Source: Phycisphaerales bacterium
Lineage (GTDB): Bacteria > Planctomycetota > Phycisphaerae > Phycisphaerales > SM1A02
Direction of reading: 5' to 3'
Assembly: GCA_030748575.1 (NCBI GenBank)
Contig: JASMLR010000002.1
Coordinates: forward strand, 151,939 to 215,938
Length of the DNA stretch: 64,000 nucleotides
Shown: positions 37,649-53,206 of the stretch, one piece after another
How the letters are laid out: every line of letters begins with the position of its first letter
How positions within the stretch are numbered: the first letter of the stretch is position 1
Translations under genes and position numbers: made by a program
Notes under the pieces: generated by a model
Database searches by the model: none
The model's input: only the letters and a program-made list of their open reading frames with translations
Told to the model about the DNA's origin: nothing

Positions 37649-37682
37649 GCCGCTGTGGGGATCGCCGCGAGGGATAGCGAGT

Positions 37683-37686
37683 GGAG
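37683..37686 (+). promoter_or_regulatory. Shine-Dalgarno site of the secretin gene
   Basis: GGAG lies six bases before ATG 37693. It favours that start over GTG 37681 and ATG 37687. Confidence 0.55.
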
Positions 37687-37692
37687 ATGACC

Positions 37693-40605
<2,913 letters not shown>

Positions 40606-42020: not shown

Positions 42021-42517
42021 AGGTGAGCCTGACTTCAGGTGAGCCTGGCTTCAGGTGGCTGGCCTCGACGCCCAGGCGCCGGCACGCAGCATTCAAGAGG
42101 CCGGCTTCAGCAAGCACACGCCACCAGGCCGAATTCAACAGGCAGGCCTCGACAGGCAGGCTTCAAGAGGCAGGCTTCAACCAGCAGACCTCAGCCACCA
42201 GACGTCTCCAGGCAGCCGTCTACCAGAAGACGTCAACCATCGGAACTCAACAAGGAGCCTTCCCCGGCAGTCCTCAACCGGCAGTCCTCAACCGGCAGGC
42301 TCGCACAAGCGGACGTCAACGACCAGGCTGCCACTGACAGGTCTCCATCAGCAGACTTCAACGAGCAGACTTCAACGAGCACGCGCCACCAGCCAGCCTG
42401 CCCACAGTCAGGCTCGCACGGTCCGGTCTGCACTGGCTGGCTTCGCCCGGCAGACGTCGGCGAGGAGGGGTTTACACGCAGACGTCACCAAGCAGACATC
42501 AACCCGACCGCCATCAG
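42021..42517. repeat. Degenerate 13-15-base tandem array
   Basis: The stretch is made of loosely conserved units of the form CRGCAGRCTTCAAC. Clear examples are CGGCAGTCCTCAAC twice in tandem (42265-42292), AGCAGACTTCAACG twice (42351-42378) and CAGGCAGGCTTCAA (42154 area). About 25 units can be traced, with several interruptions. All three plus-strand frames are open, but none has a family signature. It ends four bases before a strong hairpin. Confidence 0.7.
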
Positions 42518-42520
42518 GAA

Positions 42521-42550
42521 GCAAGCCCCGCACAGGCGTGCGGGGCTTGC
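42521..42550 (-). terminator. Strong hairpin downstream of the giant gene
   Basis: GCAAGCCCCGCA (42521-42532) and TGCGGGGCTTGC (42539-42550) pair perfectly, plus one more C-G pair in the loop. The hairpin starts 28 bases after the minus-strand stop at 42578. It is a good terminator candidate although only a short TT follows. Confidence 0.7.
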
Positions 42551-42577
42551 CGGGTGAGCACAAGGATGGAGCCGAGG

Positions 42578-45500
42578 TCACCCCGGAGGCCGCGGGCTGA
42601 TCAGGTCCGAAATCGTGAGGTAGTCCATGTACCACTGGTAGGGCACCGGCTCGTTCGCTCTGGTCACCGTTCGGATGTACATCCGGTTCGTGCCAGGCTC
42701 GAGGTACTGCTCGATTCCGGGGGGCGCCCCGCCGAATGGAAGCGCGTTGTACTCGGTTGGGGGATCACCTGCCGGCGTCGTCTCGGGGACGAATGAAATC
42801 CACCTGGTCGCTCGGAAACTGTAGACCCACACGGCGTACTGCCCGCCGACATCGGGGCCTGATCTGGTCGTATCAATGCCAAAGTCGGCACCGCCGATCA
42901 CGTCTTCGCCGATTTCGCAGGTGAACTGAACATCGACCACATCTGCTCCGTCCGGATAGTAGATGGGGCCGGGCACGTAGACGCCAGTCGGGATGGTCAC
43001 GCTGCCGAACCCGACCTGCCAACTCCTGAACTGCGCCCACTCGTCGTCGCCTTCAAGTTCGACGCTGAAGCGGGTGCCATCCAGCAGGTCGCCGGTGATC
43101 ATGTCCATTCGGATGATCCGGAACGGCAGTTCGTCTCCGAAGTCGTCGTCCTCCGGCACGTTGGACACCAGATCGTCGAAGAGCCTGCCGAGCTGTGGCA
43201 TGCGACCGACGAATCGGTTCTCAGGTTCGGCCTGGTCGAGATCCCAGTCAAACCGTCCCAACGCGCCCGCCGGATTCGCCACGCCGGTGGCAATACCGCC
43301 GGCATTGCCGAAGATGGCCGTGGAGTACAGGCGGTCGATGAGTACGGAGGGGAGGAGGCGCTCGCCGTACCACTGGCGGCAGAAACTCTGGGCCGAAGCC
43401 GCGGCGGCCGCAACCTGAGCGGTCGCGGCGATCGACCCGTCGAGCTGGGCCCCGAAGTCGTTCGTGTACGACCGGGTCCGGCCCGCTTCGGTCAACGTGT
43501 AGGTGCCGTTGGTGGCCACGGTGGCGGCGCCATCGATGGTCAGCAGCGACAGGTTCGCGTTGCCGCCCGTAGTCGTCACACCGCCGCCCCAGGCGCACAG
43601 GGACGCGGTCAGTGGACTGGGTGTACCGGGCGTGACCGTGTCGATCTCGGCGTAGTTGGAGGACCACCATCGCGCGTAGTTGTCTTCGCTGGATGGCGTC
43701 GCTGCCGCAATGACCGAGACATTGTCGGCACCGGTGAAGTCATCGACGCCCGGCATGGCCACGCCCGCGTCGCCTGCAGGGACGAACACATGGATGCCGC
43801 TGGCCGCAGCCAGCTCAATCAGCGGAAGCACTTCCGGATCGCTGAGCAGGAAGTCATCACCCCCGCTGGACCGGAAGGCAAGCACCAGCACGTCGCCGAC
43901 ATCGAGGACGGACATGGCATGGAAGAAGGCGTCCTCCATACGCTCTGCCGGCGAGGACGATCCGGAGGGAAGCGTCCGTGTCGGGAAGAACATGGTGGTT
44001 GCCGCGTGCGCCATACCGGTCACACCGAAATCGTTGGCCGTGGCGGCGATCACGCCGAGGACGGCCGTGCAGCGGGCGGTGGCCTCAGGATCGGAGAAGT
44101 CGAGCGTGATGTCGGGCAGGCCGATCGCCTGGCCTTCGAGAATCACATTCTCCAGATCCTCGTGCACGCCTCCGGGATTGAAGGGCGTGCCGGCCTGCAA
44201 CCATGCGGCCTCGCCAAGCACTGCAATGTTGACACCTTCGCCGTAGGCGTTCAGCGCAACACCGCTTGAGTCCGCCAATGCGTTGACGCGAGCCGTCCAG
44301 GTGTCCGGAGGATCCGTTCCGTACTCGGCGGGACCGAGCGGGTCCACCTCTGGCCACATGGCCATGCCGTCGGCCGCGTACCAAGGGGAGGGGCACATGC
44401 CGTAGATGTTCTGATGCGGGGTGCCGCATGTGTCGGTTCCGGCAGCGGTCGGGTTCGACCAGGAGAGCGGGGCCCAGATGAGCTGGCTCAGGGGGTTGGG
44501 GAGGCCTTCATCGGTCAGGCCGTCGCTGACCCGAGAACCGTCCGGGCCCTGAATCCACTCGGCGTAGTCATCCGAGAGGCTGCCGTACTCCTGCCGGAAT
44601 CCCTTGACGCCTGCATTGAGTTGCAGTGGGAAGAAGTCCGGAGTCTCGGTGCCGGCGTTGACGGAGGGGTAGCAGATGGTGCGGGCGGTCATGGCCATGT
44701 ACGGCGTCCACTGCCCGGTGAGCGGGGGCGTCGGGGCTCCCACGGGGACGCCCATATGCCCGAAGTCCACCCATTCCGCGTCGCTGTAGAGGTCGCCATC
44801 GCTGGCGGCGTCCTTCTCCTGAAGCAGGGTGGCGATGACACGCATGCAGCAGTCGTAGTCCTGACAGCCAACGAGCAGGCTCTCGTCCTCGGCGACTTCG
44901 GACCAGGCACTCTTGCCCGACTGCGATCCGGGAACATTGCACTGGCCGGCCGATGAGAGAATGCCCTGGCATCGCGGCGCGAACTGATACAGCCGTCCGG
45001 CCTGCATTCGAACCTGAGCGTAGTCGTCATAGCCGGCATCGGTTGGCGGCACGGGGAGGCCCGGCTTCAACGCGTTCTCGATGCTGGTGTCGGCCACGCT
45101 ACAGGGCGGCAGACCGGCCGCGGTTGGGTCGATCCAGTTCGGCAGCGTCGCCTCCAGCATCGGGTCGAGCCGGATGTTGCGTGGGTCGGCGTTGTACTGG
45201 CCCAGGGCGTAGAGGACCTCCGGGGTCGCTGCACCCTCCGGCCACACGTACTCGGGCTGGAAGGACTCCCAGTCCGGATACTCAGGTGAGAGGAAGGGCG
45301 TGATGCCGCGGCAGGTGTAGTCGGCGAAGTCGAGTCCTGCGGTGCCGCGGTCCTGCAGATACAGGTCCAGCGCGACCTGAGCGCACTCTTCGTCCCAGAC
45401 GTCCCCGCCGCCCTGTACCGGACAGCAGCCGGGGACGATGGCCTCGACGGCCTCGCAGCAGGATGTTTCATCACAGTAGTTGCCGATGTAACACTCCTGC

Positions 45501-48391
45501 TCCGTGGGATAGGCCTCGTTGTCGTAGGTGTCGATGAGGGTCGGGAAGGTGGCGCTGTGCGGGAAGTAGCAACTTCCGTAGACGGGGTTGCCCACACGCT
45601 CCGCAGCCGTCGTGATCTGGTTCGGCCAGATGTAGGAGTCTCCCGAGTTGTCGGGCGTGGCGACCTGGTCGCCCATGTACTCCCACGGCGTGGTGCCGCG
45701 TTGGGTGTGATTGAGATAGCGGCCCTTGCCGTGGAAGACGGGGTAGGGCGTGGGCTCGCCAATGTCGAACAGGTACACCGTGTCCATCCACCGGTTCCAG
45801 CCGTCGTTCCACGGGTACAGGACCTGCTGGTTGAGTGGGTCTTCGAAGTCTTCGTCGGAGTTCTGCATCTGCCACCAGTGGACCCAGCGGTTCCAACCGG
45901 GATAGACCGGCCAGAGTGACTCGCCCTCAGGCGTATCCCACGGGAGCGAGACGCCCCGCTGCGTCGCCAGACCCAGTGAGCCCTCAAACTCCAGGCACGT
46001 GGGTGGAATCGCAAACGACACCGTCTGGCCGTAGTGGCCCGGATCACGGATGCCTGGGAAGTCCTCAGAGGTCGCGCCGGGGTACAGCCCCTCGCTGCCG
46101 TCCAGCGTGGGGTACCACTCAAGGAATTCATCCTCGGTCAGGTTCAGGAACTGCCAGGTGGGGTCGCCGGTCTCGGCGCGGTTGAGCGTTGTGATCTCGT
46201 CGTACCACCTCGGGGGGTCCCACCCGGTCCACTCCACGTAGGTTCCGATGTACTCCCATGGGGGCACGATGAACTCCGGCTGGTCACCGACGCACAGGGG
46301 ATCTTGAGCATCGGGGCGTCCCGGGTTGATCGGGGAACACCACGAGTAGAAGCCGAGTGTTGGATCGAAGCCGTCAGGAAGCGAGTTGGCCGGCGGCGTG
46401 AACCAGGTGCACCACGTCGGCCGGTATTGATTCTGGTGAATGCGGTGTACCAGCGCGCCGGTCGCGGGATCTGGAACCAGCAGGTTCGGGTCAATCATGT
46501 TGCCGAGCCAGCAGGGATTGTTCGCTCCGGTGGGAAGGCCGAGGCTCTCGGCGGTGTCATTGCAACTCGACAGAGACGTGACGGTGGCCTCGCCGGCGCT
46601 GGCGCACGAGCCGATTCGGTAGCTGTCGATTTCTGGATCCACCGCACCTGTAAGGCAATCAATGATGTATCCGCCCGGGTCGCCACAGGCGAAGGTGCCA
46701 TCGAAGAAGAGGTTGGGATAACTCGCCGGGTCTGCTGGATTGACCCCACCAAGAAAGGCGCCCCCGAGATTCACGCACCGCTCGCACGCCGTCTCGGCAT
46801 TGCTGTTGGTCATGAATCGGGAGTTGCCGATGACGATCGCGCCGCCCGGAGAACTGGACCCCTTCCAGTACGGGTTGGATCCGGTCCACGGGTCGGCCCC
46901 GACTTCCAGGCCAAAGCCCTGCCACTGCGGCATGAAGTCGATGGTGGCCGACTCCGGGTACCCGGTGTAGGCAGCAAGTGAGCCCGGGTACATGGCGGGC
47001 TGGCCCCATGTTGTGAGGTTCGGGATCATGGCCCCCGGCCAGTCTGTCACCGGCGCGGGCACGCCGGGCGCGTTCGCGGTCGTGGCTGACATGGCGTTGC
47101 ACTGGCTGAACTTGGTGCCGGCCGTGAAGTCCGTCGTGTCCAGCGAGACGGCCTCTTCCCTGAAACAGCAGATCCCGAAAGAGAGCACACACGAGTCGCA
47201 GTTGTCATAGGCCTTGTATCCGGCGTACCAGTTGTTGTTTGCGGTACCCGGGTCCACGGCTGGATCGGTGCCTGCCCACTGTCTGGCCTGGAAGATGCCA
47301 GGGTCGTCGCAGTCGTCGGCGTAGGTGTCTTCGCCGCCCCGCAACCCGGGGCCGGTGCAGCACGCGCCGAACGTGCGGCACTGCACCTGGTTTCCATCGG
47401 CGAAGTACTCGTAGACCGGATCCACGTAATCCAGATCATTCGGCTGCGGCGGGTCGAATGCTGCCAACGCGAGATCTGCGTACACGCCCGGATAGCCACT
47501 GGCAGGCGATCCATTGACGTAGGCCTCACAGTCGTCCTCGTCCGCGAGGTCGAGGTTGTACCCGGCGACCCAGGCCGGGCCCCGGCCCACGATGTCCTTC
47601 ACGTACACAAGGAAGCAGCAGGCCCCGACGCGGTCCTGCCCGGCGTTGCGGTTGCCGCGTCGCTCAGCTTCGCGTCGGCGGTTGTCGGCGTTGGCCCGCG
47701 CGACGGCGTCCCGGCGGATTTCGAAGAGTTCGACCGCTGCGTCCTCAACGAGCCGCTGCGCCTCGTCGAAGTCTGCGACCGGCTCGAGGATCACCAGGGC
47801 GTCATCGGCGCCTGTGTCGATCGGTCCGGCAACCCATGGCTCGATCGGCCGCTCGGCCGGTTTGCGGGGTGTTGCTGCCGGCGCGTCGACGCCGGTGCGG
47901 CGGGAGAAGCGGATGTACTCGATCTCACCGGCGCGGTTGAGCCGCTTGGCCACCCGTTCAATGTCACGAGCAGGCGCATCGGCCCAGAAGGTGGCGCCCA
48001 GATCGGCAAGGGTGCCTCCGCCGCCGCGTTCGGCGCGGCGCCGGGCCCGCTGAATGTCCGCTTCCGAAATGGAGATCGCGGGGGTGAGCGTGACGTCGAG
48101 GCGATCCAGGAGCGACTTCAATGCTGTGAGGTCCTTGCCCTTCATCGAGAAAAGTTGCCCGTCCGGAAGCACCCGCGCGCCCAGATCACGGTGCAGCCGG
48201 ATCTTGAGGCGGTGCCGCTGCAGGTCGGCTGGAATCTCCAGCGAACGTGCCTGCGGGGACGCCGCGGTGGGCGGAGTGGCCGCGTGGTGCGACCCGCCTG
48301 TCGCGCCGGGCCTGGCGGCCATAACGGCGCCGGCGGTCGCGAGTGCAAGCGTGGCGAGAAGGGTGTGCTGGACGGTGCGTCGTGTCATCAT
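42578..48391 (-). CDS. Giant secreted Cys-rich protein with a degenerate subtilase-like domain
   Basis: The 1,937-residue protein starts at ATG 48391 (48388 or 48400 possible) with a signal peptide (TVQHTLLATLALATAGAVMA). Residues of about 50-180 resemble the prodomain of secreted S8 peptidases (LKIRLHRDLGARVLPDG). About residues 257-1330 form a Cys-rich part with CC doublets (GACCFLVYV, FGACCTGPG, GICCFREE, CCEAVEAIVPGCCP then WDEECAQVA). From about 1380 a subtilase-like fold follows, but the Asp strand reads NIAVLGEAAW and the His motif reads ARCTAVLGVIAA. The Ser motif survives as DGSIAATAQVAA. It is therefore probably an inactive structural or binding protein. Confidence 0.7.
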   Translation of the reverse strand: MMTRRTVQHTLLATLALATAGAVMAARPGATGGSHHAATPPTAASPQARSLEIPADLQRHRLKIRLHRDLGARVLPDGQLFSMKGKDLTALKSLLDRLDVTLTPAISISEADIQRARRRAERGGGGTLADLGATFWADAPARDIERVAKRLNRAGEIEYIRFSRRTGVDAPAATPRKPAERPIEPWVAGPIDTGADDALVILEPVADFDEAQRLVEDAAVELFEIRRDAVARANADNRRREAERRGNRNAGQDRVGACCFLVYVKDIVGRGPAWVAGYNLDLADEDDCEAYVNGSPASGYPGVYADLALAAFDPPQPNDLDYVDPVYEYFADGNQVQCRTFGACCTGPGLRGGEDTYADDCDDPGIFQARQWAGTDPAVDPGTANNNWYAGYKAYDNCDSCVLSFGICCFREEAVSLDTTDFTAGTKFSQCNAMSATTANAPGVPAPVTDWPGAMIPNLTTWGQPAMYPGSLAAYTGYPESATIDFMPQWQGFGLEVGADPWTGSNPYWKGSSSPGGAIVIGNSRFMTNSNAETACERCVNLGGAFLGGVNPADPASYPNLFFDGTFACGDPGGYIIDCLTGAVDPEIDSYRIGSCASAGEATVTSLSSCNDTAESLGLPTGANNPCWLGNMIDPNLLVPDPATGALVHRIHQNQYRPTWCTWFTPPANSLPDGFDPTLGFYSWCSPINPGRPDAQDPLCVGDQPEFIVPPWEYIGTYVEWTGWDPPRWYDEITTLNRAETGDPTWQFLNLTEDEFLEWYPTLDGSEGLYPGATSEDFPGIRDPGHYGQTVSFAIPPTCLEFEGSLGLATQRGVSLPWDTPEGESLWPVYPGWNRWVHWWQMQNSDEDFEDPLNQQVLYPWNDGWNRWMDTVYLFDIGEPTPYPVFHGKGRYLNHTQRGTTPWEYMGDQVATPDNSGDSYIWPNQITTAAERVGNPVYGSCYFPHSATFPTLIDTYDNEAYPTEQECYIGNYCDETSCCEAVEAIVPGCCPVQGGGDVWDEECAQVALDLYLQDRGTAGLDFADYTCRGITPFLSPEYPDWESFQPEYVWPEGAATPEVLYALGQYNADPRNIRLDPMLEATLPNWIDPTAAGLPPCSVADTSIENALKPGLPVPPTDAGYDDYAQVRMQAGRLYQFAPRCQGILSSAGQCNVPGSQSGKSAWSEVAEDESLLVGCQDYDCCMRVIATLLQEKDAASDGDLYSDAEWVDFGHMGVPVGAPTPPLTGQWTPYMAMTARTICYPSVNAGTETPDFFPLQLNAGVKGFRQEYGSLSDDYAEWIQGPDGSRVSDGLTDEGLPNPLSQLIWAPLSWSNPTAAGTDTCGTPHQNIYGMCPSPWYAADGMAMWPEVDPLGPAEYGTDPPDTWTARVNALADSSGVALNAYGEGVNIAVLGEAAWLQAGTPFNPGGVHEDLENVILEGQAIGLPDITLDFSDPEATARCTAVLGVIAATANDFGVTGMAHAATTMFFPTRTLPSGSSSPAERMEDAFFHAMSVLDVGDVLVLAFRSSGGDDFLLSDPEVLPLIELAAASGIHVFVPAGDAGVAMPGVDDFTGADNVSVIAAATPSSEDNYARWWSSNYAEIDTVTPGTPSPLTASLCAWGGGVTTTGGNANLSLLTIDGAATVATNGTYTLTEAGRTRSYTNDFGAQLDGSIAATAQVAAAAASAQSFCRQWYGERLLPSVLIDRLYSTAIFGNAGGIATGVANPAGALGRFDWDLDQAEPENRFVGRMPQLGRLFDDLVSNVPEDDDFGDELPFRIIRMDMITGDLLDGTRFSVELEGDDEWAQFRSWQVGFGSVTIPTGVYVPGPIYYPDGADVVDVQFTCEIGEDVIGGADFGIDTTRSGPDVGGQYAVWVYSFRATRWISFVPETTPAGDPPTEYNALPFGGAPPGIEQYLEPGTNRMYIRTVTRANEPVPYQWYMDYLTISDLISPRPPG

Positions 48392-48707
48392 GTCTCTCAT
48401 CTCGATGTCAGCCGTGTGGCCGAACTGGTCCGCAACACTGCGGGCCGATCCCCCGGCGGTATCCCACGAACTCCACTTCCTCTGGTCTTCCTCTGATCCC
48501 ATACGGGATCTGGTGGCGGGGCGCTGCTGGGATCTCTCCTCTTAGGTCCAAAAACCACGGCGGGAGGCCCCACATCGAGCCTCTGCCACGCGGTTTTCAA
48601 CCGCTCCGAGAGTATACCTCTGCTCTGCTGATACTGGGGGGGCAGGCAACGCCGAAACCGCCACCCAGACAGGTGTTGAGAGCCTCGCGTGGCCGTCCCC
48701 ACAAGGA
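48392..48707. other. Leader region of the giant gene
   Basis: No gene is seen. On the minus strand it has a TATACT box near 48613 and a small hairpin GCGGTT/AACCGC just after it, either of which could belong to the promoter or leader of the giant protein gene. No matching -35 box was found. Confidence 0.3.
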
Positions 48708-48744
48708 CCACCGCCCGGCGGCTGCGGGGGCCGCCGGGCGGTGG
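48708..48744 (-). terminator. Terminator hairpin after rpoC
   Basis: CCACCGCCCGGCGG (48708-48721) pairs perfectly with CCGCCGGGCGGTGG (48731-48744) around the loop CTGCGGGGG. It lies 46 bases after the rpoC stop on the minus strand and probably ends the rpoB-rpoC transcript. No long U-run follows. Confidence 0.75.
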
Positions 48745-48790
48745 GGTGTATCACGCGGGGGTGCAGCGGGGGAGGGCCCGCCTGAGCGGC

Positions 48791-51700
48791 TCAGCCCTCG
48801 GCGGTCTCCTGCCCGTCGTCCGACGGCCCAGCAACCACGGTCTCCAGGACGGTGTCCTCAGCGACCGGCGATGCCATCACGGTGGGGGGCTCGGCGCCGA
48901 GGGCCTCGGCCCGCTTGGCCGCAGCCTCCATGGCCTCCCGGGCGTCGTCCTCTTCGGTTGACGGCGGCTCGGCAAGCCGCTCCACCTTCATGTCGGTGTA
49001 GGGGCGGAAGCCGGTGCCGGCGGGGATGAGGTGGCCGAGCAGGACGTTCTCCTTCAGACCACGGAGTTCGTCCACGGCGCCTCGGAGGGAGGCCTCCGTC
49101 AGCACCTTGGTCGTCTCCTGGAACGAAGCGCTCGAGAGGAACGAGTCGGACTGAAGCGAGGCCTTGGTGATGCCCAGCAGCAGCGTCTGGCCCGTCGCAG
49201 GCTGGGCCCGCTTGGTCTTGGCCGGGGCCTTGCCTTCTGCCTCGGCAATGGCGTTGGCCTCTTTGACTTCGGCGCGATCCACGAGGTCGCCGACAATGAA
49301 CGAGGTGTCGCCGGCGTCGGTGATTCGCAGCTTTCCTGCCGCGTCCTGATTGGCGGCCCGGAAGAAGTGTCGATCGACGATCTCCTCGGGCAGCATGCCG
49401 GTATCACCCGCCCGCTTGACGAGCACCTTGGACAGCATGCACGAGAGAATGGTCTCGATGTGCTTGTCCGCGATGGGGACGCCTTGCGCGCGGTACACGT
49501 TCTGGACCTCGTCCAGCATGTAGTTGAAGACGATCTCCTCGCCGCGAATCTCAAGGATTTCCTGCGGGTCGAGTGGACCTTCAGTCAGCGGATCGCCGGC
49601 CTCCACCCAGTCGCCGGCGTGCACCAGAAGGTGCTTGCCCTGCGGCACGTGGTGGTCGATCTCCTCTTCGACATCCGTGACGACGCGGACCGTCATCTTG
49701 TTCTTGCGAACGTCGTCGTGCAGTTCAATGCGGCCAGAGACGGTCGACATGATCGCCGGATCTTTCGGCGTTCGTGCTTCGAAGATCTCGGTGACACGCG
49801 GGAGGCCGCCGACGATGTCGGCGGAGCCGGCGACGTCCTTGGGCTGCCTGGCCAGCATCTCGCCCTGCTTGATGGTCTGACCTTCCTCCACTTCAATGCG
49901 GCACTTGGCCGGGAGGTGGTGGAAGTCAAGAATGTGGCCGTCCTTGTCTTCGACCAGGATCTGCGGGTGCATTTCGCCCGTGTGCTCGATGACGATGAGT
50001 TCGTCCTTGTCGGCACCCTTGGCGGATTCCTGGCGGATCGTCTTGCCAATCTCGATGTCCTTGAACCGCACAACGCCCGTCTCTTCGGCCAGAATCGGCG
50101 TGAGGTGAGGGTTCCACTCGACGAGTACCTGTCCCTTCGAGACGGAGTCGCCATCGGCGGCGTGAATGATGCCGCCGTAGGGGACCTTGTACTTCTCAAG
50201 CTCACGACCGCGGTCATCGAGCAGCGCGATTTCACCCTGCCGCTTGAGGGCAACGAGTCGCTCCGTTCCTTCAATGTCCACCTTGACTTCGCGGCATTCG
50301 CGGAGTTGGGCGGTACCGGCATGGGCTGCGCGGTAGCTGGTTTCGGTCAGGCTGCGAGAGGCGATGCCGCCCGTGTGGAACGTACGCATGGTGAGCTGCG
50401 TTCCGGGCTCGCCAATCGACTGGGCGGCGATGGTGCCGACGGCGAGGCCGCCTTCGACCAGTTGGCCGGTGGACATGTCCATGCCGTAGCACTTGGCACA
50501 GACGCCTCGACTGGTGTCACAGGTCAGCGGTGTTCGGACCTGCACGGAGTCGATGCCGAGCTTCTCAATCTTGCTGGCGATCTCCGTGGTGATGACGTCG
50601 TCCTCTTTGACGATGACTTCGTCGGTCAGCGGATTGATCACCGTCTGGCGGCTTGTGCGGCCGACCACGATTTCACGCAGGGGCACGTCGACCTCTTCGC
50701 CCTTGTAAATGGCCCGCTTGGAGATGCCGCGGCGGGTGCCGCAGTCGTACTCCGTGACGACGACCGCCTGAGCGACGTCGTACAACTTTCGGGTCAGGTA
50801 CCCGGAGTCGGCGGTCTTCAGAGCGGTGTCGGCCAGACCCTTTCGGGCACCGTGCGTCGAGGAGAAATACTCGAGCACGTTCAGGCCTTCACGGAAGTTC
50901 GCGCGAATAGGCGTTTCGATGATCTCGCCGCTGGGCTTGGCCATCAGGCCACGCATGCCGGCGAGTTGCTGCATCTGGCTGACGTTGCCTCGAGCGCCCG
51001 AGGTGGACATCAGGTAGACCGGGTTCAGGTAGTGCTGGCCCTCGGATGAGTCGATGGCCACTTCCTGAAGCGTGCTCATGTCACGCCGGTCGAGTTTCAG
51101 GGTCTCCGCCAGCGCCTTGGTGAGTTCCTCACGGCAGTGCGCCCAGATGTCCAGCAACTGGTTGTGGCGTTCACGCTCGGTGATGGCACCGGCCCCGTAG
51201 GCCCGTTCGACCGCATCGACCTTCTTCTGGGCGGCGCCCAGAAGGTCGGACTTGCTCGCGGGGATTCGCATGTCCGTGATCGCGATGGAGAGGCCGGACG
51301 TTGTGGCCGTCTTGAAGCCGATCTCCTTGAGGTCGTCCAGGAGCGTCAGCGTGTCGTCACGGCCGCAGTACTTGAACGTGTCGTCGATGACGCGGCTGCA
51401 CCCCTTCTTTCCAAGCGTGCAGTTGTAGAACGGCATGCCATCAGGAAGGATCGCGGCGAATCGCAAGCGGCCGACCGTCGTGACAACGCGGCCGTTCTCG
51501 CCAATCGGTTCGAGGCCGCCCTTCTCACTCTTCACCTGTTGGGTGAATCGGGAAAGCCGGACGACGATCGGCTCGTGCAGCGAGATCTGCTTGTGCTCAA
51601 GCGCAAGCAACGCCTCGGGAAGGTCGCGGAAGGCGTGCAACTCGTGCTCGGGCTTCATGAGTTCCTCACGCATATAGGTGAGGAAGTACATGCCCATGAT

Positions 51701-53206
51701 GATGTCCTGACTCGGGGACACAATCGGGTTGCCGTTTGCCGGCGAGAAGATGTTGTGCGTCGAGAGCATGAGGACATGCGTCTCGACCTGCGCCTCCAGG
51801 GAGAGCGGCAGGTGGACGGCCATCTGGTCGCCATCGAAGTCGGCGTTGTAGCCGGTGCAGACGAGCGGGTGGAGGGTGATGGCGTTGCCTTCGACCAGCA
51901 CGGGCTCAAAGGCCTGGATACCCATGCGGTGCAGGGTGGGGGCGCGGTTGAGCATGACCGGGTGCTGGTAGATCACCTGCTCCAGAATGTCCCACACCTC
52001 CGGGTCGCGTCTCTCAAGCATCCGCTTTGCGGACTTGATGGTGTCGGCGAGGCCGTGCTCCTTGAGCTTCCGGATGATGAACGGCTGATAGAGCTCCAAC
52101 GCAATCTTCTTGGGAAGGCCGCACTGGTGGAGCTTGAGTTCGGGCCCGACGACGATGACCGATCGGGCGGAGTAGTCCACCCGCTTGCCGAGGAGATTCT
52201 CGCGGAATCGACCCTGCTTGCCCTTGATCATGTCGGTCAGCGACTTGAGCGGGCGGTTGCTGCTGCCCAGCACGGGGCGGCGGCATCGGTCGTTGTCGAA
52301 GAGGGCATCGACGGCCTGCTGCAGCATCCGCTTCTCATTGCGGATGATGACCTCGGGGGCGTTGAGGTCCATGAGCTTCTTGAGCCGGTTGTTCCGATTG
52401 ATGATCCGCCGGTAGAGATCGTTCAGATCGCTTGTGGCGAAGTTGCCCGAGTCGAGCAGCACGAGCGGGCGGAGATCTGGCGGGATGACCGGGATCACGT
52501 CCAGCACCATCCACGTGGGATCGTTGCTGCTGTTGCGAAGCTGCTCAACAATCTTGAGTCGCTTGGCGAGGTCCTTGATCTTCTGCTTCGACCGCGTCTT
52601 GGTCAGATCCTCGCGAATCTCGGCTGCCGTCGCCGTGAGGTCGAGACCATGAAGCAGTTCGATGACCGCGTCTGCACCCATCATGGGCTTGAAGGCGCTC
52701 GGACCGTACTCACGCTGGAGTTCGCGGCACGTGTCTTCGTCGACGACCTGGCGGTACTCCAACTCGGTGTCGCCCGGATCCGTGATGACGTGGTCCTGGA
52801 AGTAGATGACCTTCTCAAGATCGGAGGTCTTCATTCCCAGAAGGGTTCCGAGGCGGCTGGGAAGCGCCTTGAAGAACCAGATGTGCACGATGGGCGCGGC
52901 GAGGTTGATGTGTCCCATCCGCTTTCGGCGGACGCGGGAGTGGGTCACCTTGACGCCACAGCGGTCGCAGATGATGCCCTTGAACTTCGTGCCCTTGTAC
53001 TTGCCGCACGCGCACTCATAGTCCCGCTCGGGACCGAAGATGCGTTCGCAGAACAGGCCGTCCTTCTCAGGACGGTAGGTGCGGTAGTTGATGGTCTCAG
53101 GCTTCTTGACCTCTCCGAAGCTCCAACTCCGAATGTCGTTGGGGCTGGCAAGAGTGATCTTGACCGAGCTGAAGTCATTGACGTGATCGAATACGTTTTC
53201 GGTCAT
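48791..53206 (-). CDS. rpoC: DNA-directed RNA polymerase subunit beta'
   Basis: The 1,471-residue protein is a complete beta' subunit. The N-terminal zinc site is [19 protein letters not shown], the catalytic Mg loop is [15 protein letters not shown], and the second zinc site is [11 protein letters not shown]. The bridge-helix and trigger-loop region includes [15 protein letters not shown] and [10 protein letters not shown]. The C-terminal 60 residues are an acidic Glu/Ala tail ([19 protein letters not shown]). It lies 52 bases after rpoB and ends near a 14-pair hairpin. Confidence 0.98.

Follow-up and report, generated by a model that had tools for sequence, protein, structure and literature searches.

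A putative pseudo-subtilase encoded beside rpoC in Phycisphaerales and a graded series of catalytic loss among its relatives

The window analyzed here is a 64,000-nucleotide stretch of the genome of a marine planctomycete of the Phycisphaerales (assembly GCA_030748575.1, contig JASMLR010000002.1, positions 151,939 to 215,938), and its minus strand carries, with rpoC directly upstream (48791..53206, minus strand, recognized from its translation), an open reading frame of 1974 codons from the first ATG (42578..48502, minus strand). Judged from sequence comparison, the encoded protein, which is very large and probably secreted, is a real, conserved and fully dead subtilase whose relatives hold an unusually complete record of its loss. 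It is probably a catalytically dead S8-fold protein descended from an rpoC-adjacent subtilase, that is, a permanently capped, non-proteolytic pseudo-subtilase with a role that we infer. The evidence for this reading covers the fold, the loss of all four catalytic sites in the window protein, the clade in which the loss is found, a retained prodomain segment, open reading frames and an excess of synonymous change. A preliminary description of the same DNA had proposed a secreted pseudo-subtilase with a long cysteine-rich insertion. Its reading frame, on the minus strand, is borne out, the longest start lying at 48502 and the ATG chosen there, at 48391, being Met38, which is the likely start and is followed by a signal-like stretch.

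Fold and catalytic positions of the window protein

The subtilase-fold domain occupies residues 1417-1780 (43163..44254; this and all further features of the gene are on the minus strand). Residues 1400-1974 were modeled with AlphaFold2 from an alignment of 16 sequences (A1, the window protein and 15 relatives), giving a predicted local distance difference test score (pLDDT) of 81.4 and a predicted template modeling score (pTM) of 0.75. Comparison of this model with the PDB by VIA-align returned a Z of at least 8 for 391 of the 990 aligned chains, with a best value of 25.3 (root-mean-square deviation 3.4 over 270 residues) and with rows that cover mostly model residues 1-386, and all 50 PDB matches listed by Foldseek are subtilases. 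With the A1 profile, subtilisins of known structure are matched at E 3.3e-12 (7xr8), and a single-sequence phmmer search with the window protein finds one PDB subtilase at E 0.0017. Searches of the whole window protein against Pfam and NCBIfam found no family, the curated cut-off of PF00082 not being reached; the same model matches nine of the 16 A1 members at E 0.01 or better, and stands above its cut-off in 4/4 live relatives versus 0/2 dead ones. NCBIfam searches with four relatives gave matches only far under the curated cut-offs, mycosin being the best. The window domain is predicted to have an S8 subtilisin-type α/β fold, and the structure prediction and S8 alignment proposed in the preliminary description thus return a subtilase rather than an unrelated fold.

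The register of the catalytic positions was set by the profile alignment of A1 to PDB subtilisins. There the acid column stands opposite the catalytic Asp, the His is matched by an Arg and the oxyanion Asn by an Asp, and the nucleophile Ser is matched by the residue following Gly-Ser. Because the G-T-S of the relatives and of the PDB subtilisins is aligned with G-S-I in the window protein, the nucleophile position there is Ile. The former Asp site is Gly1430 (44213..44215), the former His site Arg1477 (44072..44074), the former oxyanion Asn site Asp1578 (43769..43771) and the former Ser site Ile1691 (43430..43432). All four catalytic positions are replaced, so that the protein has neither the Asp-His-Ser triad nor the oxyanion Asn. 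The motifs named in the preliminary description are all present: the Asp strand does read VLGEAAW, RCT does take the place of HGT, and GVTGMAHAA occurs as well. Its claim that the Asp and His sites are lost stands; its further claim, that the Ser region alone survives, is wrong, given Ile1691 at the nucleophile and Asp1578 at the oxyanion position. A triad elsewhere in the protein, which it had named as grounds for abandoning the idea, was not encountered: neither Pfam, applied to the whole protein and to the linker, nor a search for HExxH revealed a second protease signature. The idea of a dead protease is upheld by the subtilase fold, by the four replaced positions and by the loss of His, Asn and Ser throughout one clade of 19 aligned domains.

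Catalytic states among relatives and the order of loss

The 181 genomes of the same taxonomic family were searched with the A1 profile at a threshold of E 0.001, and matches were obtained in 148 of them, in 92 of the 104 high-quality genomes and in 44 of the 45 genera, some of the 148 being weak and perhaps due to other S8 genes. In all, 117 domains were taken from 116 genomes of 38 genera, with genome G028 contributing two; for the alignment of catalytic states, two domains cut by contig ends (L037 and L038) were dropped and two order-level outgroups added, which again gave 117 rows. These comprise 85 live rows, the two outgroups included, 19 dead rows and 13 others. Every live row keeps His, Asn and Ser, with Glu (58 rows) or Asp (27 rows) at the acid site. 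The register of the Glu-type domains at the acid site is supported by an alignment of nine of them, in which the Glu is invariant and matches PDB subtilisins without gaps. Among the 13 others, ten have one or two sites changed, or one site changed and the acid site uncovered, and three are live-like apart from an uncovered acid site.

The 19 dead rows belong to the genera g1, which is that of the window (8 rows), g61 (5), g8 (3), g50 (2) and g5 (1). Their His site is Arg in 18 rows and Ser in one, their oxyanion Asn site is Asp in 19 of 19, and their Ser site is occupied by Val (7), Lys (5), Leu (3), Ile (3) or Thr (1). At the acid site stand Asp (9), Ala (5), Gly (4) and Thr (1); the acid is gone in g1 and g50, and Asp is kept in g8, g5 and g61. 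Just before the old Ser site the dead rows carry extra sequence, 6 or 8 residues in a place that has 2 in live rows; this could be measured in 17 of the 19 dead rows and in 52 of the 85 live ones. Intermediate states are found in the six rows of g19, which read, in the order acid, His, Asn and Ser sites, Asp-His-Met-Ser (2), Asp-His-Asp-Gly (3) and Asp-His-Asp-Arg (1). Changes at the Asn site also occur elsewhere, in four rows of g57.

A quick IQ-TREE tree was computed from 116 rows, L032 being too short and left out, with the four catalytic columns removed. The 19 dead rows form one clade with a support of 94 in the Shimodaira-Hasegawa-like approximate likelihood ratio test (SH-aLRT), g19 is sister to it, and the 25 rows are held together with an SH-aLRT of 99. 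The outgroup state is Glu-His-Asn-Ser, and the fewest changes needed on the tree are four among live, partial and dead states and seven when the acid site is scored as Glu, Asp or neither. From this outgroup state, the partial g19 as sister and these counts, the likeliest order of loss would be a change of Glu to Asp, followed by loss of Asn, then of Ser, then replacement of His by Arg and last the loss of the acid.

Of the 91 loci for which 600 bases or more of upstream sequence were available, 34 have rpoC within 1 kb; they come from 20 genera, which include g1, g8, g50, g61, g19 and the earliest branches. All 14 genera that lack an adjacent rpoC belong to the tree's other large clade (71 rows). 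Of the 20 rpoC-adjacent genera, 19 fall outside that clade and one, g24, is absent from the tree. No rpoC was seen at either outgroup locus within the 9.5-10 kb of sequence read.

The prodomain-like segment and the cysteine-rich linker

The prodomain-like start seen in the preliminary description was found as a segment at residues 98-199 (47906..48211), recognized by profile match in homologs. It has no Pfam match in the window protein; a profile grown from residues 93-204 matches 97 of 117 homologs, and each of the remaining 20 is truncated by the 5' edge of its sequence. Of the 19 dead proteins, the 12 whose 5' end is complete all have the segment, and the other seven are cut there.

Between this segment and the subtilase-fold domain lies an enlarged Cys-rich linker (residues 200-1400, 44303..47905), which was measured at 1202 residues; it contains 41 Cys and six CC doublets. 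The many CC doublets noted earlier are a real excess, reached in 3 of 2000 shuffles of residues 230-1399, although a modest one, 1.4 being expected by shuffling. Linkers of dead proteins are 892-1348 residues long (median 1120.5, n=12), compared with 108-569 in Glu-type (median 291, n=55), 278-688 in Asp-type (median 413, n=21) and 397-877 in g19 proteins (n=6). The median Cys number is 40 in dead linkers versus 22 in Glu-type ones, at a lower density (3.5% versus 7.4%), so that linker growth came mostly from other sequence.

Linkers were scanned in 70 of the 117 proteins (the window protein, one per genus, and all of some genera). Their consensus contains two Cys modules, with TPDF after the second. 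Each is recognizable in the window protein, the first with the pattern CC..V....CC....WD..C at residues 1004-1050 (45353..45493) and the second with TPDF..LQ at residues 1213-1302 (44597..44866). Since both consensus modules are retained, the stretch previously regarded as a new insertion is better described as an enlarged version of the shorter ancestral linker of active-looking relatives. A blastp self-comparison of the window linker found no self-repeat.

Pfam domains recognized in the 70 linkers are Reprolysin_5 in two, Peptidase_M43 in one and Lamin Tail Domain in one. One locus of g22 beside rpoC (L036:5542-9450) encodes an M12B reprolysin-type zinc protease with HELGHNWGAFH inside the linker, and the subtilase domain behind it reads Glu-His-Asn-Ser. 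In a g19 protein (L117:2253-7289) the linker contains an M43 zinc protease of the PAPP-A type with HEMGHYFNLYH, and the Ser of its own subtilase domain is Arg; in this protein one protease is lost and another gained.

Selection and conservation

Nei-Gojobori counts were made for six pairs, and the proportion of nonsynonymous differences (pN) is below that of synonymous differences (pS) in all six, including every region of all four dead-clade pairs. For the dead domain, pN and pS are 0.19 and 0.72 between the window protein and its congener G007, 0.15 and 0.72 between G002 and G001, and 0.20 and 0.70 in a g61 pair; in a g8 pair with unsaturated synonymous change, the corrected distances (dN and dS) are 0.23 and 0.93, and a live pair of g26 gave 0.31 and 0.62 in the same comparison. 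The excess of synonymous change is a sign of constraint on the encoded protein, and nothing further is drawn from it. Within the dead clade the median pairwise identity is 32% (171 pairs) and the acid and nucleophile sites vary, so that the Arg at the His site (18/19) and the Asp at the Asn site (19/19) have been kept over deep divergence.

Proposed history and alternative explanations

The ancestor of the window protein would have been a subtilase encoded beside rpoC, with a short Cys-rich linker between its prodomain and its catalytic domain. On the lineage to the five dead genera, catalytic residues may have been lost in stages, probably first Asn and then Ser, both stages being represented in g19, next His by replacement with Arg, and last, in the window's genus and g50, the acid; over the same lineage the linker would have grown about three- to four-fold by medians. 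The protein is presumed to be exported, on account of a signal-peptide-like start at residues 38-63 (MMTRRTVQHTLLATLALATAGAVMAA, 48314..48391) read by eye from the sequence. As it would not cleave itself, the prodomain would stay attached and cap the old active-site face, and the product could be a capped, one-piece, disulfide-braced binding or scaffold protein in which the nearly fixed Arg/Asp pair of the old pocket forms part of a new role. A fuller version of this history, in which a secreted protease lineage beside rpoC was switched off stepwise to yield a permanently capped scaffold or binding protein whose new pocket is formed by the Arg and the Asp, and in which the linker became a landing ground for new modules, zinc proteases in at least two relatives, is put forward tentatively. 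If true, the tree would hold nearly every intermediate from enzyme to pseudoenzyme.

Several observations weigh against parts of this account. The support of 94 for the dead clade was obtained in a quick tree computed without bootstrap, in which the dead row L102 is flagged as a long branch and its placement is unsure, and the congener G007 reads Ser rather than Arg at the His site. Foldseek TM-scores for the whole model are low (0.29-0.35 by query), because only about the first 386 residues are subtilase-like and the C-terminal third is uncovered. Synonymous distances reach about 2 or more for most regions in congener pairs, and this saturation leaves the g8 pair as the only one to give a usable ratio. 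Columns conserved specifically in the dead clade are not significantly clustered around the former catalytic positions (p 0.09 within 10 residues, and p 0.21 without the catalytic columns); the argument for a remodeled pocket is thereby reduced to the Arg and the Asp, which may be simply inherited. A long linker is not unique to dead proteins, being 855 residues in L037 (live-type Glu and His, then the domain is cut) and 877 in L117. The AlphaFold2 model of the window linker (17 rows) is unusable at a pLDDT of 40.6, and in consequence the disulfides and the scaffold role are guesses. The sole indication of export is the signal-like start read by eye, and the function is one that we infer.

Another explanation, which has some plausibility and is nevertheless unlikely, is that the linker is the working part of the protein, as an unrecognized enzyme or binding domain, and the dead subtilase only its carrier. 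Linkers of relatives do take up domains, as the M12B and M43 proteases and the Lamin Tail Domain illustrate, and that of the window protein exceeds the linkers of both L036 (569 residues) and L117 in length. Against this, the window linker yielded no Pfam match, no HExxH motif and no PDB relative by profile search, and it folded poorly in prediction.

A somewhat less probable proposal, drawn by analogy with CspC and CspA of Clostridioides difficile, would make the protein a regulator or decoy of active subtilases in the same cell. In its favor, the window genome holds four further S8 genes above the Pfam cut-off, and S8 paralogs occur in dead-clade genomes of g50, reading Glu-His-Asn-Ser (L211 and L212), and of g61, reading His-Asn-Ser with the acid site uncovered (L214 and L215); the published parallel is that of the C. 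difficile pseudoproteases (PMC6636752; PMC12880746). However, the dead copy in g1, g8, g50 and g61 occupies the rpoC-side place that live orthologs hold in other genera, which argues that it replaced the enzyme and is not an extra copy alongside it, and no protease or inhibitor was recognized among the nine neighboring open reading frames scanned, nor did these suggest a partner. Separately, two dead-clade genomes hold second copies, a further dead one in G099 (L210) and one whose His site is Arg in G137 (L213), which may reflect duplication or contamination.

It is improbable that the protein is still a hydrolase with a rearranged site, employing for example Glu1431 and Ser1690, each one residue from the lost acid or nucleophile. 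A Glu does directly follow the lost acid position in all ten rows of g1 and g50, yet the His site is Arg or Ser in every dead row, Lys stands at the nucleophile site in g61, and the positions next to the lost residues stay in register. A decaying pseudogene or assembly artefact, suggested by the four missing catalytic residues and by one TAG inside the tblastn match of G001, is already contradicted by the sequences, since broken frames would then be expected across the genus, whereas the dead version has an open frame in eight of nine genomes of the window's genus (the ninth, G006, has no more than the N-terminal part, at the end of a contig) as well as in four further genera, the G001 frame is open for 1984 codons and covers residues 28-1972, so that its TAG precedes the likely start, and pN is below pS throughout the four dead-clade pairs. 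A permanently capped, non-proteolytic pseudo-subtilase is accordingly the reading retained for the comparisons below.

Genomic setting

The gene ends in a C-terminal strand-rich domain (residues 1790-1974, 42581..43135), which is defined by model strands and alignable in live relatives too. Orthologous pseudo-subtilases are 1879-2243 residues long in the five congeners with a gene uncut by a contig end. A contig scan for close relatives returned only three loci, every one from a metagenome-assembled genome named Phycisphaerales, and a tblastn search for a phage homolog found none. Upstream lies rpoB in addition to rpoC, likewise on the minus strand and recognized from its translation. A G+C-rich inverted repeat was seen by eye between rpoC and the pseudo-subtilase gene (window 48560-48790); a terminator scan of 42300-49000 returned one site, fewer than in shuffled sequence. 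Six of the nine neighboring open reading frames have a Pfam match (secretin, carbamoyl-phosphate synthase small chain, PriA, 2-oxoglutarate dehydrogenase, 2-oxoacid dehydrogenase acyltransferase and ribosomal protein L1); the remaining three are without a match. The secretin-domain protein (window 37681-40605, plus strand) has a start resembling tetratricopeptide repeats, a weak match below the cut-off, and a long poly-glycine run in its middle.

Comparison with known systems

Searches of the literature on subtilase pseudoenzymes, planctomycete subtilases and Glu-type triads found no report of this family; the pseudoproteases and pseudoenzymes described there are clostridial, malarial and other cases. 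PIMMS2 of Plasmodium, from an unrelated organism, is reportedly a subtilisin-like pseudoenzyme. Sedolisins (S53) have a related fold, need a Ser-Glu-Asp triad and share with the dead clade an Asp at the oxyanion position. A sedolisin reading of the family was rejected, as none of the 19 dead rows has the nucleophile Ser, its place being taken by Val, Lys, Leu, Ile or Thr.

The likely ancestor type is found among the Glu-type S8 subtilases of Planctomycetota, which share the catalytic-domain profile of the window family and of which two relatives, L177 and L178, have a segment similar to the window prodomain. Unlike the window protein, these Glu-type relatives have a full Glu-His-Asn-Ser set in 28 of 30 scored rows, and no Cys-rich linker was seen in the two outgroup proteins; their open frames are mostly of 540-780 residues, some exceeding 1000. 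The phylum-wide search matched 39 of 244 genomes, and 34 rows were aligned, of which three are fragments without sites and two come from the window genome, one being the window protein itself. In the 30 scored rows (L180-L209, which exclude the window protein and include one of the S8 genes of its own genome), the two that differ read Asp-His-Asn-Ser; because a Glu-type profile was used, the search is biased towards Glu. An S8 group of Planctomycetota with Glu in place of the subtilisin Asp represents a triad variant open to direct assay.

The closest published parallel is CspC of C. difficile, for which one report describes a prodomain that is unprocessed because of triad substitutions and the residues G485, T170 and D105, that is, an acid kept and His and Ser lost (PMC6636752). 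CspC and CspA are described in a second report as forming a signaling heterodimer (PMC12880746). The window protein resembles CspC and CspA in having a subtilisin-like fold from which catalytic residues are lost, and the CspC pattern is that of the dead domains of g8, g5 and g61. It differs in that the window's genus and g50 lack all four positions, in the replacement of His by Arg, and in the linker of about 1200 residues between prodomain and domain. The lineages are unrelated, and the germination role of CspC is not transferable to the window protein.

Only a few dead subtilases, CspC among them, are known. The 117 domains compared here form a series that leads from an intact (Glu or Asp)-His-Asn-Ser set through the partial state of g19 to complete loss in the window's genus and g50. 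Along this series the prodomain segment is retained, and on the dead-clade lineage the gene mostly keeps its place beside rpoC. With such a graded series at hand, both the order of catalytic loss and the non-catalytic roles of subtilases become testable.
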